This document shows positions 31,825-40,162 of a stretch of 64,000 bases of DNA, piece by piece. This DNA is from Fibrobacter sp. (lineage in GTDB: Bacteria > Fibrobacterota > Fibrobacteria > Fibrobacterales > Fibrobacteraceae). How positions within the stretch are numbered: position 1 is the stretch's first letter; the number at the start of each line of letters is the position of its first letter. The position numbers and the translations under genes are program-made. The notes under the pieces were generated by a model, which made no database searches, was not told where the DNA came from, and saw nothing but the letters and a program-made list of their open reading frames with translations. The stretch is from NCBI GenBank assembly GCA_024398845.1, contig JAKSIM010000007.1, positions 1 through 64,000 on the forward strand. The letters are read 5' to 3'.

Positions 31825-31898
<74 letters not shown>

Positions 31899-31964: not shown

Positions 31965-32191
31965 GGGTATAAAAAGAGGCGTAATCGCGCCCTTATACCC
32001 ACCATTATTAATTTGTTTGTACTAAAGTGGGCGCAGTTTGGTATGACTTGCTGCCTGTTTGGGTATAAACCAAAGTACTTTCTTGTGTTTATACCCATTC
32101 GTACTTTTTGAGAAGCGAAAGTGTTCTTTTGAAATGCAGTTGTGATGAATGATGTGGGTATAAGAGTCTCTTATGATGTTGATTTATACCC
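31965..32191. repeat. Three 36-bp inverted-repeat elements GGGTATAA-N20-TTATACCC
   Basis: Elements at 31965-32000, 32061-32096 and 32156-32191. Each has the same perfect 8-bp arms and exactly 20 bases between them; element starts are 96 and 95 bp apart. The 20-base interiors and the 60- and 59-base intervals between elements are not conserved. They lie in about 600 bp of AT-rich sequence between a tRNA and an XRE regulator gene, without a credible reading frame. No known element is recognised. Confidence 0.95.
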
Positions 32192-32503: not shown

Positions 32504-32845
32504 ATGTGGTATGGATACGATGTTTTTTCTAGGGTGGGTCGGAGTATGCTGCTTCAATTTAGGCGGGAGTACTCGATCTCACAAAAACAGTTGGCGGCTC
32601 TTTTGGGGGTATCTCGCCAATTCATTTCTCTTGTAGAATCGGGGCGACGAAGTATTTCCTTTGAACTTCTTTGTCGATTGGCTGATTTAAAAAATTGGTC
32701 AATGGAAGAATTTCTTCGAAGGTACGCAGCCGTGTGGAAATCGGAATGCCGGGCGGAGAAATGCGGCTCTTCGCAATTGCCCTTAGACGAAGGTACTGTG
32801 CGGCTGATTGCTGCGGATTTTCACGAAGCAAAAAGGTTCGATTAA
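32504..32845 (+). CDS. XRE-family HTH transcriptional regulator
   Basis: 113 residues from the ATG at 32504; an internal ATG at 32546 (MLLQFRREYSIS) would give a 99-residue form starting right at the HTH. The helix-turn-helix is LLQFRREYSISQKQLAALLGVSRQFISLVESGRRSISFELLCRLADL, close to the Cro/CI-type HTH_3 domain. The C-terminal 50 residues (EKCGSSQLPLDEGTVRLIAADF) are unassigned. It lies between two sets of palindromic or repeated sites and directly upstream of groESL, so it may control itself or the chaperonins; that is inference. Confidence 0.8.
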   Translation: MWYGYDVFSRVGRSMLLQFRREYSISQKQLAALLGVSRQFISLVESGRRSISFELLCRLADLKNWSMEEFLRRYAAVWKSECRAEKCGSSQLPLDEGTVRLIAADFHEAKRFD

Positions 32846-36761: not shown

Positions 36762-38129
36762 ATGAATATTCGGATTTCTGCGATTGCTTTAGCTTGTCTC
36801 ATTGGATTTTCAAATTCCGTGGCTTCGGACCCGCGTATTGAGCAGGGGGCCCGTTTTGAGGCCAAAGGCGAATTCGACAAAGCTCTAGGGGAGTATCGTT
36901 CTGTTTTGGCGGAAGACCCTAGGAATTCTGAAGCGTATTTTGCGGCTGCCGAAGTTCGCATGAAAATGAAGGACTACAGTGGCGCCTTGGCAAACTACCG
37001 CTTGGCTTACAAGTTCGAACCGACCATGAGCGTCGCCTACGAAGGAGCTGCGAAGGTTTACGAGGCTTTGGGCCAAAAGGCGAAGGCCGATGCCGAACGC
37101 ATGAAGGACCCGAAGAACAGACCTGCCGAAGAAGTTGCCGATTCTGCTGTCGAAACTCCGGCTGCTGAAACTGCACCTGCGGTTTCGGCTGAAGCGCCTG
37201 CTGCCGAAGTTTCTGCTGCCGCCCCTGTCAAGGAAGTTGCCAAGACCCAGGAACCTGCTGCAGAGCCTGCTGTGCCAACAAGAAAGATTGCGGAAGCGCC
37301 GAAGGCAGAGCCCGTCAAGGAAGAAAAGGCGGTTGATGCTCCTGCTGCTGAAGATCCGTTTGAAAAGGGCAAGGCCTTGCTTGCCGAGGGTAAGTATAAG
37401 GAAGCCGCTCCGATGTGGCGCGAAGTCCTTGCCAAAAAGCCTGGTGATGCCGGTGCGTATTTTTATGCCGGTGTGACTCGCTATGAAATGGGTGAGTTCG
37501 ACAAGGCTGAGTTTAATTTGAAGAAAGGACTTTCGTACGCCGGAAAGGGTAATGAAGCCAATTACTATTTGGCTTTGATTTATCAGAAGACAAATCGCCC
37601 GGAACTAGAAAAGAAGTCCTTGGCTGCATTCTTGAAGAAGGCTGCTCCGGATGCAAACTTCCGCAAGGCGGCGGAAGACCGCATGGCCGAGATTAACGCC
37701 CCCGCAGCAAAGGAAACGGTTGCCGAAGAAGCTCCGGTAGAAACTCCAGAAGTAAAGACTGCTCCGGCCGAAACTGCGGCTGCTGTCGCTGCACCAAAAA
37801 AGGCGGCGAAGGTTCCTGAGACTGAGGTCGAAGGAAATTCCATTACCAAGGCGAATACGCTCTTTAAGGTGGGCGATTTCGAAACTGCCTTGCAAATGTA
37901 CAAGGCTTTGCTGGAAACGGAAATTACTCCGGACGAGCGCTATTTTGCCATGCTCCAGATGGGCAACATTTATCGCGAAATGCGCGACTTCCACAGCGCC
38001 GTGACACGCTACCGCGAGGTGGTGCAGCAGTTCCCGGACTCCGACTGGGCGACTGAGGCAGAGCGTGCGTTGGAAGATGCCGTGTGGCTCGAAAAGCACA
38101 GCAAGGATTTGCCGGCTCGCAAACGCTAA
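36762..38129 (+). CDS. Exported TPR-repeat protein with Ala/Pro/Glu linkers
   Basis: 455 residues with a signal peptide (1-22). TPR units occur at about 23-105 (GARFEAKGEFDKALGEYRSVLAEDPRNSEAYFAAAEV...), 200-290 (GKALLAEGKYKEAAPMWREVLAKKPGDAGAYFYAGV) and 365-440 (ANTLFKVGDFETALQMYKALLE ... HSAVTRYREVVQQFPDSDWATEAERALED). They are separated by low-complexity Ala/Glu/Pro/Val linkers (about 120-195, 310-355). The last block resembles YbgF/CpoB-like TPRs. Probably a periplasmic scaffold; the partner is unknown. Confidence 0.75.
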   Translation: MNIRISAIALACLIGFSNSVASDPRIEQGARFEAKGEFDKALGEYRSVLAEDPRNSEAYFAAAEVRMKMKDYSGALANYRLAYKFEPTMSVAYEGAAKVYEALGQKAKADAERMKDPKNRPAEEVADSAVETPAAETAPAVSAEAPAAEVSAAAPVKEVAKTQEPAAEPAVPTRKIAEAPKAEPVKEEKAVDAPAAEDPFEKGKALLAEGKYKEAAPMWREVLAKKPGDAGAYFYAGVTRYEMGEFDKAEFNLKKGLSYAGKGNEANYYLALIYQKTNRPELEKKSLAAFLKKAAPDANFRKAAEDRMAEINAPAAKETVAEEAPVETPEVKTAPAETAAAVAAPKKAAKVPETEVEGNSITKANTLFKVGDFETALQMYKALLETEITPDERYFAMLQMGNIYREMRDFHSAVTRYREVVQQFPDSDWATEAERALEDAVWLEKHSKDLPARKR

Positions 38130-38336: not shown

Positions 38337-38460
38337 TGATGGACCAAATTGCGTTTTTTGTGCGTTTGGTCCATCAATTTTGCCGAATTCCCTTTGACTG
38401 ATTACGAATAAAGTAATATTTGATGGACTAAATTGAAAAATTTAAGTGTTTGGTCCATCA
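38337..38460. repeat. Two 40-bp inverted-repeat elements TGATGGACCAAA-N16-TTTGGTCCATCA
   Basis: Element A 38337-38376 has perfect 12-bp arms. Element B 38421-38460 has one change (GGACTAAA) and can be extended by two matching bases outwards. Both have a 16-base interior, not conserved except for TTG at the left and G at the right. They start 84 bp apart, upstream of the GH16 gene and after the 26-bp array. The rest of the 455-bp gap shows nothing else. Confidence 0.95.
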
Positions 38461-38584: not shown

Positions 38585-40162
38585 ATGATTTTTTCGCGTA
38601 GTGTGGCAATGTCGGCTGCGGTCGGCTTAATTGGCTTAGTGGGTTCTTCTTTTGCGGATCCGCCTTCAAATTTCAGTGGTTGGGAAAAGGTTTTCGAGGA
38701 CAACTTCGACGGAACCTCCCTTGACAAGAGCAAGTGGAACCCAACGTACAATTGGGGCCACACGCATAACCATCGTGCCTATTGCGTCGAGGAAAACGTC
38801 ATTGTCTCGGACGGCACGCTCAAGCTCAAGGGTGAAAAGAAGAAGAACCCGAACGCTCCCGCGACGGCGGAATTCAGCGGCAAAAAAGTTCCTGTGGATT
38901 ACACTTCGGCGGCCATTGACACCAAGGGCCATTTTGAAGTGAAGTACGGCTACATTGAAGGTCGATTCAAGGCTCCGTGGCAAAAGGGAACGTGGCCTGC
39001 GTTCTGGACCTTGCAAGACGGTTGGCCTCCGGAAATTGACATCCTCGAGATTCCCGCTTCTCGCAAGCAGCACCACTATTACATGCATTACACGGATCCG
39101 AGCTGGTATAACAGTCATGGCTCGGCGTGGGATCACGAGGCTTCGTTCGGCGGTCACAAGGACGACAATACGGACCGTTCGGCGGGTTTCCACAATTACG
39201 GTGTGGAGTGGGATGAAAGTACGATGTCGTTCTACTTTGACGACAAGAAGTTTGCGAGCTTCAACCGTCCGACGGAACTTAAGCAGTTGAGCGCCCAGTA
39301 CATTATCATCAATCTCGCCATTGGCGGCTGGGCTGGAGACGATATTGAGATTACGGCGGATAAGCCTGCATATTTTGAAAGTGATTGGGTGCGCGTGTGG
39401 CAGGCAAAGCCGGCGAAGCCCGATACGGTGCGTATTTACTCCATGGCATTTGGAACTTGCATGCAGCCGAATGCCGATAAGCAATTGGCACTTGGCGATT
39501 GCGAAAACGATGCCGCCGTCGCAATTGTCCAGCCTCTTAGCGGGTCGACTTATCGCATCAACTTTGGCGACGTGGTTGTCGAAATCCCGAACGAGAAGAC
39601 GGATGCTGGCTTGACTGCCGGTGTATATGAGTGGAACGGAAAGGCGCACCAGAAGGTTCTCATGGAAAAGCAGTCCGGCTATGACGGAACCGTGGTGCGC
39701 ATGAAGATGTCGCATAGCGATATGTACCTGCGTGCGACTACCGATGGCGAGCGCGTTGTGCAGAGTTGGGCCGATGATTGGGAATGGAACCAGAAGTGGC
39801 GACTCTTTGGGGCGAACGAAAAAATTCCGGTCAAGGATACGACTGCGAAAGATACGACGGGTGCTACGAAGGACACTTCTGTTACAGACACCTCAAAAAC
39901 TTATGTGAAACGTGGTGTGGGTAGCGAAACGACTGGCTGGATAAGCGATGTGCGCTATCGAAATAATAGTTTGTATGTTGTTCCGGCAAGTTTGCTTGGT
40001 GATAATGCCTTAGTGAGAATCTTCAATGTACATGGCAAAGAACTGATGCGTCAAAGGGTGCACCAATACGCTATTATGGATGTGACAAACTTACCTGCCG
40101 GTATTTATCAGGTGCTGATGGGCGAGGGCAAGAACATCGAAATGCTCCGCTTTAAAAAGTAA
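38585..40162 (+). CDS. Secreted GH16 beta-glucanase with ricin-like and sorting domains
   Basis: 525 residues: signal peptide (1-24), GH16 domain (about 30-275) with the catalytic EIDILE motif (Glu150, Asp152, Glu155), a ricin-type/CBM13-like domain (about 285-412: SMAFGTCMQPNADKQLALGDC ... QKWRLFGAN), a Thr/Asp-rich linker (KDTTAKDTTGATKDTS) and a C-terminal sorting-like domain (about 450-525: LVRIFNVHGKELMRQ ... LPAGIYQVLM). GH16 enzymes of this type cut beta-1,3 or mixed beta-1,3-1,4-glucans. A laminarinase or lichenase role is likely. Confidence 0.9.
   Translation: MIFSRSVAMSAAVGLIGLVGSSFADPPSNFSGWEKVFEDNFDGTSLDKSKWNPTYNWGHTHNHRAYCVEENVIVSDGTLKLKGEKKKNPNAPATAEFSGKKVPVDYTSAAIDTKGHFEVKYGYIEGRFKAPWQKGTWPAFWTLQDGWPPEIDILEIPASRKQHHYYMHYTDPSWYNSHGSAWDHEASFGGHKDDNTDRSAGFHNYGVEWDESTMSFYFDDKKFASFNRPTELKQLSAQYIIINLAIGGWAGDDIEITADKPAYFESDWVRVWQAKPAKPDTVRIYSMAFGTCMQPNADKQLALGDCENDAAVAIVQPLSGSTYRINFGDVVVEIPNEKTDAGLTAGVYEWNGKAHQKVLMEKQSGYDGTVVRMKMSHSDMYLRATTDGERVVQSWADDWEWNQKWRLFGANEKIPVKDTTAKDTTGATKDTSVTDTSKTYVKRGVGSETTGWISDVRYRNNSLYVVPASLLGDNALVRIFNVHGKELMRQRVHQYAIMDVTNLPAGIYQVLMGEGKNIEMLRFKK

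Follow-up and report, generated by a model that had tools for sequence, protein, structure and literature searches.

An intergenic array of three elements with identical arms

What might three evenly spaced inverted repeats with identical arms in the DNA between a tRNA gene and a regulator gene be for, and which protein do they serve? We addressed this question in a 64,000-nucleotide stretch of a Fibrobacter sp. genome (GCA_024398845.1, contig JAKSIM010000007.1, positions 1 to 64,000), which we will henceforth refer to in its entirety as the window. A preliminary description of this DNA had reported three elements with identical 8-bp arms and had read them as paired half-sites for protein binding or recombination. 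The array was found exactly as reported, i.e., three 36-bp elements with perfect 8-bp arms, a 20-bp gap and centre-to-centre spacings of 96 and 95 bp:

31825-31898, + strand: tRNA-Arg(ACG), followed by a terminator (context only, outside the array system)
31965-32000, unstranded: element 1, GGGTATAA-N20-TTATACCC, half-sites 31965-31972 and 31993-32000 (sequence match)
32008-32025, unstranded: constant motif TTAATTTGTTTGTACTAA, in the first interval of the array (sequence; enrichment of its core)
32061-32096, unstranded: element 2, GGGTATAA-N20-TTATACCC, half-sites 32061-32068 and 32089-32096 (sequence match)
32156-32191, unstranded: element 3, GGGTATAA-N20-TTATACCC, half-sites 32156-32163 and 32184-32191 (sequence match)
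32504-32845, + strand: XRE-family regulator gene (context only; kept at the same place in relatives that lack the array)

Shuffled windows, with three mismatches allowed, gave a mean of 0.10 matches and never three; the three-element observation is confirmed as exact and lies far above chance. An Rfam search of the window returned the tRNA as its sole match.

Seven arrays follow the turns of the DNA helix

A genome-wide search for the pattern and its spacing, as the preliminary description had recommended, was carried out in the assembly from which the window comes (2.77 Mb, 83% complete; a gap of 10-35 permitted). It returned 19 perfect GGGTATAA/TTATACCC elements, every one with a gap of 20 or 21 bp, and a reversed control pattern returned none. 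Together with two one-mismatch copies added by eye (on contigs C25 and C44, with left arms GGGGATAA and GGGTATAG), these elements form seven arrays, each of exactly three elements. The genome thus holds at least seven scattered copies, of which the window array is one, and its half-sites occur in pairs rather than isolated and at random spacing, the pattern that had been named as speaking against the paired-site proposal.

The distances between element centres within the seven arrays, 74-96 bp, follow multiples of 10.53 bp (R 0.945, a value reached in 0 of 20,000 simulations). The half-site logo reads T-GGGTATAA-R, flanked on the outside by A-rich and T-rich DNA. By manual tally none of the seven arrays lies within a gene: five are placed between tandem genes and two between convergent ones. 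Five have one gene or more downstream, in some cases with the gene start within 32-82 bp. A tRNA precedes only two of the seven, the other five having no adjoining tRNA.

Two other explanations for such repeats were considered and rejected. A CRISPR array does not agree with the constancy of only the short half-sites or with spacings that vary in helical steps. A centromere- or origin-linked role was made unlikely because, in a near-complete relative, the genes that adjoin the arrays lie at scattered positions.

Relatives keep the geometry and change the letters

Among 168 genomes of the phylum, this one was the only one in which GGGTATAA elements with the same geometry were found. In the relative G084, the place orthologous to the hsp20-side array holds three CACCCACTAA-N18-TTAGTGGGTG elements (spacings 53 and 95 bp), and genome-wide we found 22 perfect elements at twelve places, all with a gap of 18, including ten clear three-element arrays. 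Loss of the pairing in close relatives had likewise been named as evidence against paired sites; in G084, the nearest informative case, the geometry is kept and it is the half-site sequence that has changed.

A motif in one interval is common to the arrays of both genomes. Its core (ACAAANTAA / TTANTTTGT) recurs in the arrays of other species whatever their half-site, and ACAAACTA occurs in 10 of the 27 half-site groups, against an expectation of 0.15. The window array carries this core within TTAATTTGTTTGTACTAA, and the intervals are therefore not wholly unrelated, as the preliminary description had held of interiors and intervals alike.

A gene family with arrays of its own

One of the seven arrays lies directly upstream of a candidate partner gene:

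G000:C26:26773-27606 (contig C26 of the same assembly): gene for a 278-aa protein, with an array copy 82 bp upstream

G084 has a homologue on its contig C6 (273 aa, array 60 bp upstream). The two proteins are 39% identical; neither matches a Pfam family, and the C26 protein has no NCBIfam match either. Using a profile built from both, we detected the family in 51 of 111 Fibrobacter-family genomes, with five members in the genome under study. We inspected 68 homologue genes, and 62 have two or more gapped inverted repeats of the same kind in the 800 bp upstream, 46 of these cases being strong and several being weak two-element ones; the detector found no upstream array in the remaining six, one of which has just 195 bp of upstream DNA. 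Shuffled upstream DNA gave arrays in 0 of 68 cases. A simpler, exact detector had no match in 180 kb of control loci taken from relatives and just one, a hipB ladder, in 797 kb of other genomes.

The half-sites differ among homologue groups (GGGTATAA, CACCCACTAA, GGGGCATATAA, GGGGCGTATAA, TTACATACTA, GTACCTATAA, TACGTACT, TGCTACTAAA and others), and their inner side ends in (T)AAA in most groups. Across 120 spacings in 48 distinct arrays, the best period is 10.47 bp (R 0.88 vs. a simulated maximum of 0.33). Judged by sequence, the array-linked proteins appear to constitute an undescribed family with its own cognate arrays.

The four further members in the genome under study (contigs C50, C7, C35 and C12; L311-L314) each have their own half-site. 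Arrays flank the gene on both sides on C12 and C7, and the array lies mainly downstream on C50. Outside the phylum, three Lachnospiraceae genomes encode full-length homologues with upstream arrays that are longer and more tandem-like; in rumen Lachnospiraceae (L360-L362) the long tandem arrays have periods of 74, 54/108 and 73 bp and in L360 occupy both sides of the gene. No clear array accompanies the divergent homologues of one Bacillota genome (G174) or a human-gut contig that matches the C26 protein over 78% of its length.

The window itself contains a second array with a different half-site, TGATGGACYAAA:

38337-38376, unstranded: element 1, TGATGGACCAAA-N16-TTTGGTCCATCA
38402-38416, unstranded: motif TTACGAATAAAGTAA between the elements, resembling the constant motif of the first array (by eye)
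38421-38460, unstranded: element 2, TGATGGACTAAA-N16-TTTGGTCCATCA

The two elements are 84 bp, i.e., 8 turns, apart. This half-site was found beside none of the five paralogues in the genome, which leaves the second array with no cognate gene among them; the nearest half-site is that of a G084 homologue, GGACCAAA. The second array is flanked by a TPR-protein gene, which ends at 38129, and by one at 38585 that, judged by eye, may encode a glycoside hydrolase.

The neighbouring XRE regulator and hipB operators

The preliminary description had suggested the XRE protein (32504-32845) as the one to assay for binding. Binding at paired half-sites is itself strongly supported by the helical phasing, by conserved half-sites with free interiors and by a protein that co-varies with them (see below), but the XRE protein is not supported as the binder, on grounds of synteny. 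Specifically, eight relatives keep the order tRNA-Arg - XRE - groES (XRE proteins 31-38% identical) with no array between tRNA-Arg and XRE, so the XRE gene is not a likely partner, and it is another gene family that is physically linked to the arrays.

The arrays could still be read as the operator of this XRE regulator or of a HipB/Y4mF antitoxin, and at first this seemed decisive. The window XRE protein weakly matches TIGR03070 (42.5 bits), and in a two-element pattern scan of 84,980 species nearly all loci, among the matches listed, were operator ladders adjoining hipB-like (Y4mF, TIGR03070) genes; among the same matches, GGGTATAA-N19-22-TTATACCC-N-GGGTATAA adjoins such genes in more than 100 genomes. 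These ladders share the half-site word and a distance of 20-22 bp between facing half-sites with the arrays studied here, and like the arrays of the family they hold a position upstream of the gene that would suit autoregulation. Their geometry, however, is different: the half-sites face each other across 4 bp (TTATACCC-N4-GGGTATAA) in units repeated every ~41 bp, and the outer half-sites are absent from the window. The HipB/Y4mF protein, moreover, is an XRE antitoxin unrelated to the C26 protein, and the genome, at 83% completeness, has no Y4mF member above the cut-off (best matches 47.5 and 43.5 bits vs. 71.65). The XRE orthologues adjoin no array, and other species of the same array system have half-sites unrelated to GGGTATAA. 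Given the geometry, the missing gene and the unrelated half-sites of relatives, we rejected this explanation, which we find scarcely credible, and regard the common half-site word as a coincidence.

The same scan revealed that, among the matches listed, the hipB/Y4mF toxin-antitoxin operator is strikingly conserved across phyla, with TTATACCC-N4-GGGTATAA ladders of ~41-bp period (L022-L132) in Bacteroidota, Bacillota, Omnitrophota, Elusimicrobiota and others. The hipB genes of Fibrobacter relatives carry two copies of another operator, about ATTCCCGTTCGGGAAT, ~60 bp apart (L135, L138, L140, L142, L143, L144 and L147, upstream of position 1501).

Protein residues that track the half-site

At one recurrent place, beside purA, homologues differ in the half-site they carry, and a tree from which residues 44-72 were excluded shows eight changes of half-site group, the minimum being four. 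We found that three residues, 54, 56 and 57, accompany the half-site: D.CR occurs with CCTATAA, [IV].NH with CATACTA, Q.HK with GCGTATAA, and V.CH or V.SH with TACGTACT; L or Q at residue 54 occurs with GCATATAA. Of 217 columns, these three rank highest as half-site predictors once tree distance is corrected for, with partial correlations of 0.80, 0.73 and 0.70 for 54, 56 and 57 (column mean 0.03) across a set of homologues that are partly non-independent. The segment of the C26 protein to which these residues belong, GHLRVKTRGNTFHYY, may form a beta-strand reading head.

The C-terminal half of the family contains the invariant motifs SKSE, PDF and WEHxG and looks like a PD-(D/E)XK nuclease domain, with cleavage as a putative activity. 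Its predicted resemblance to Bax1 nuclease, DrdV, XisH and TnsA is weak (best Foldseek E 1e-3), the fold having been predicted for a homologue of the domain on a viral contig that stood in for the C26 protein. Searches of solved structures by sequence and of PHROGs gave nothing meaningful. A phage or plasmid origin of the protein was considered and not retained; the searches gave mainly the C-terminal domain in helicase-like proteins, alongside the human-gut contig mentioned above.

In all 22 of the members tested, this domain matches the end of the PADLOC defence candidate PDC-S68 (best E 3e-28), which raises the question of whether the arrays mark self, i.e., whether they check or position a nuclease that attacks DNA on a trigger such as phage infection. 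The presence of several paralogues per genome, with fast-changing specificity, would be in keeping with such a role. The match, however, is confined to the nuclease-like domain: the PDC-S68 models span ~1200 positions, and relatives on viral contigs (L351-L359) are helicase-like proteins of ~1200-1300 aa with the same C-terminal domain, whereas family members have ~275 aa and another N-terminal part. The genes also adjoin housekeeping genes (purA, gatA, miaB) and not visible defence islands. We consider a defence role unlikely.

A nuclease-like gene preceded by three to six inverted repeats that differ between homologues would also suit an array that acts as RNA, with transcribed hairpins that bind the protein or are cut by it in the manner of type III toxin-antitoxin systems. 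PD-(D/E)XK domains act mostly on DNA, however, and the spacings vary yet stay on multiples of the DNA helix, a phasing that RNA hairpins would not need. Furthermore, the arm letters are fixed within a genome beyond mere complementarity, and the stand-alone arrays lie in varied orientations; we judge an RNA-level role to be quite improbable.

Stand-alone arrays keep their half-sites and may have spread

Arrays are also found away from the genes of the family. Among 80 genomes of the genus, 16 carry the GGGCRTATAA half-site group in dispersed form, with up to 25 elements, and in some genomes arrays are present and no matching gene was found. In orthologous array pairs, which are partly non-independent, differences affect 18 of 1152 fixed half-site positions (1.6%), and the corresponding figures are 24% for the tolerated R position, 23% for interiors and 15.5% for flanks. 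This sequence comparison supports the maintenance of stand-alone arrays, with half-sites conserved and interiors drifting. Arrays gain and lose elements through duplication and deletion, and their place and copy number vary between species; no clean empty site, insertion boundary or target duplication was found at them.

Such conservation is also what one would expect of a purely regulatory network, in which the protein is a transcription factor with a non-cutting nuclease domain and all arrays are operators, the stand-alone ones regulating their neighbours without being mobile. The position of arrays at the promoter of their cognate gene fits this reading, as do the five of seven arrays upstream of genes. 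Some arrays, however, lie between convergent genes (two in the genome under study and at least one in G084), which weakens a promoter-only role for the stand-alone copies; in addition, the genes next to arrays have no evident common function, and the motifs of the nuclease-like domain are invariant. Pure regulation is conceivable, though we lean against it.

A proposed explanation

We propose, with a probability of roughly 0.7, that the feature in the window is a stand-alone site array for the sequence-specific DNA-binding protein encoded on contig C26. The computation supports a cognate pairing of family and array, helical phasing, co-variation at three residues and conservation of half-sites. 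As for the mechanism, residues 54, 56 and 57 would read the letters of the half-site, and a dimer would span the two inverted half-sites of one element. Elements are phased by whole helical turns, and bound complexes would therefore share one face of the DNA, where at least three dimer complexes could assemble cooperatively into one nucleoprotein structure. The array upstream of the C26 gene would control that gene, and the stand-alone arrays may have spread, and may be kept up, with the help of the protein, by analogy with REPINs and RAYT. Binding, cleavage and spread of the arrays are what we infer from these patterns. The most likely arrangement pairs a DNA-binding protein of nuclease fold with cognate arrays, some autoregulatory and some dispersed; its logic resembles that of REPIN-RAYT, to which it is unrelated.

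These results tie a chromosomal repeat without explanation to an uncharacterised, Pfam-less family of Fibrobacter-family genomes and some Lachnospiraceae. They also provide a natural series of protein/target-site pairs whose specificity appears to depend on three residues, and the recognition code is therefore directly testable. Family members usually have their own matching array, so the joint change of protein and target can be watched across species, raising the question of how dozens of half-sites per genome change together with one protein.

Relation to known systems

We found no description of such a protein/array pairing in the open-access literature. We would give even odds to the broader view that this is an undescribed class in two phyla, in which a protein of nuclease fold, equipped with a short segment that reads DNA, and its own helically phased arrays would repeatedly switch specificity together, the dispersed arrays being kept as semi-mobile intergenic elements.

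Other known systems resemble parts of this arrangement. In type III toxin-antitoxin systems a nuclease-like gene is closely preceded by a repeat array of matching specificity, as in the present family; those repeats, however, are contiguous and act as RNA, whereas the arrays are non-contiguous, follow the helix in their spacing and also stand alone. In stoperators, the site sequence changes with the repressor group. The stoperators of cluster A mycobacteriophages are many genome-wide sites of one DNA-binding protein (PMC9283540; also PMC6550527). They share this distribution of sites with the arrays, but they are single asymmetric sites of a phage repressor, whereas the arrays are phased inverted pairs linked to a bacterial nuclease-fold protein.

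Closest in logic is the REPIN-RAYT system, in which dispersed REP doublets have a linked Y1 transposase and enzyme and repeat co-evolve (PMC3116915). The present system has copy numbers of ~20 as against hundreds for REPIN-RAYT; its half-sites are short motifs of double-stranded DNA, the interiors between them are free, and its arrays have about three elements with helical phasing. The enzyme, too, is of another kind: no Y1 transposase family was among the matches of the 22 members, the C26 protein has no Pfam or NCBIfam family, and the PD-(D/E)XK-like proteins have no detected relation to Y1 transposases. Like REPINs, however, the arrays consist of inverted pairs scattered through intergenic DNA; a genome holds several distinct families of them, and the cluster of each family adjoins its own single-copy enzyme gene, with which the repeat co-evolves.
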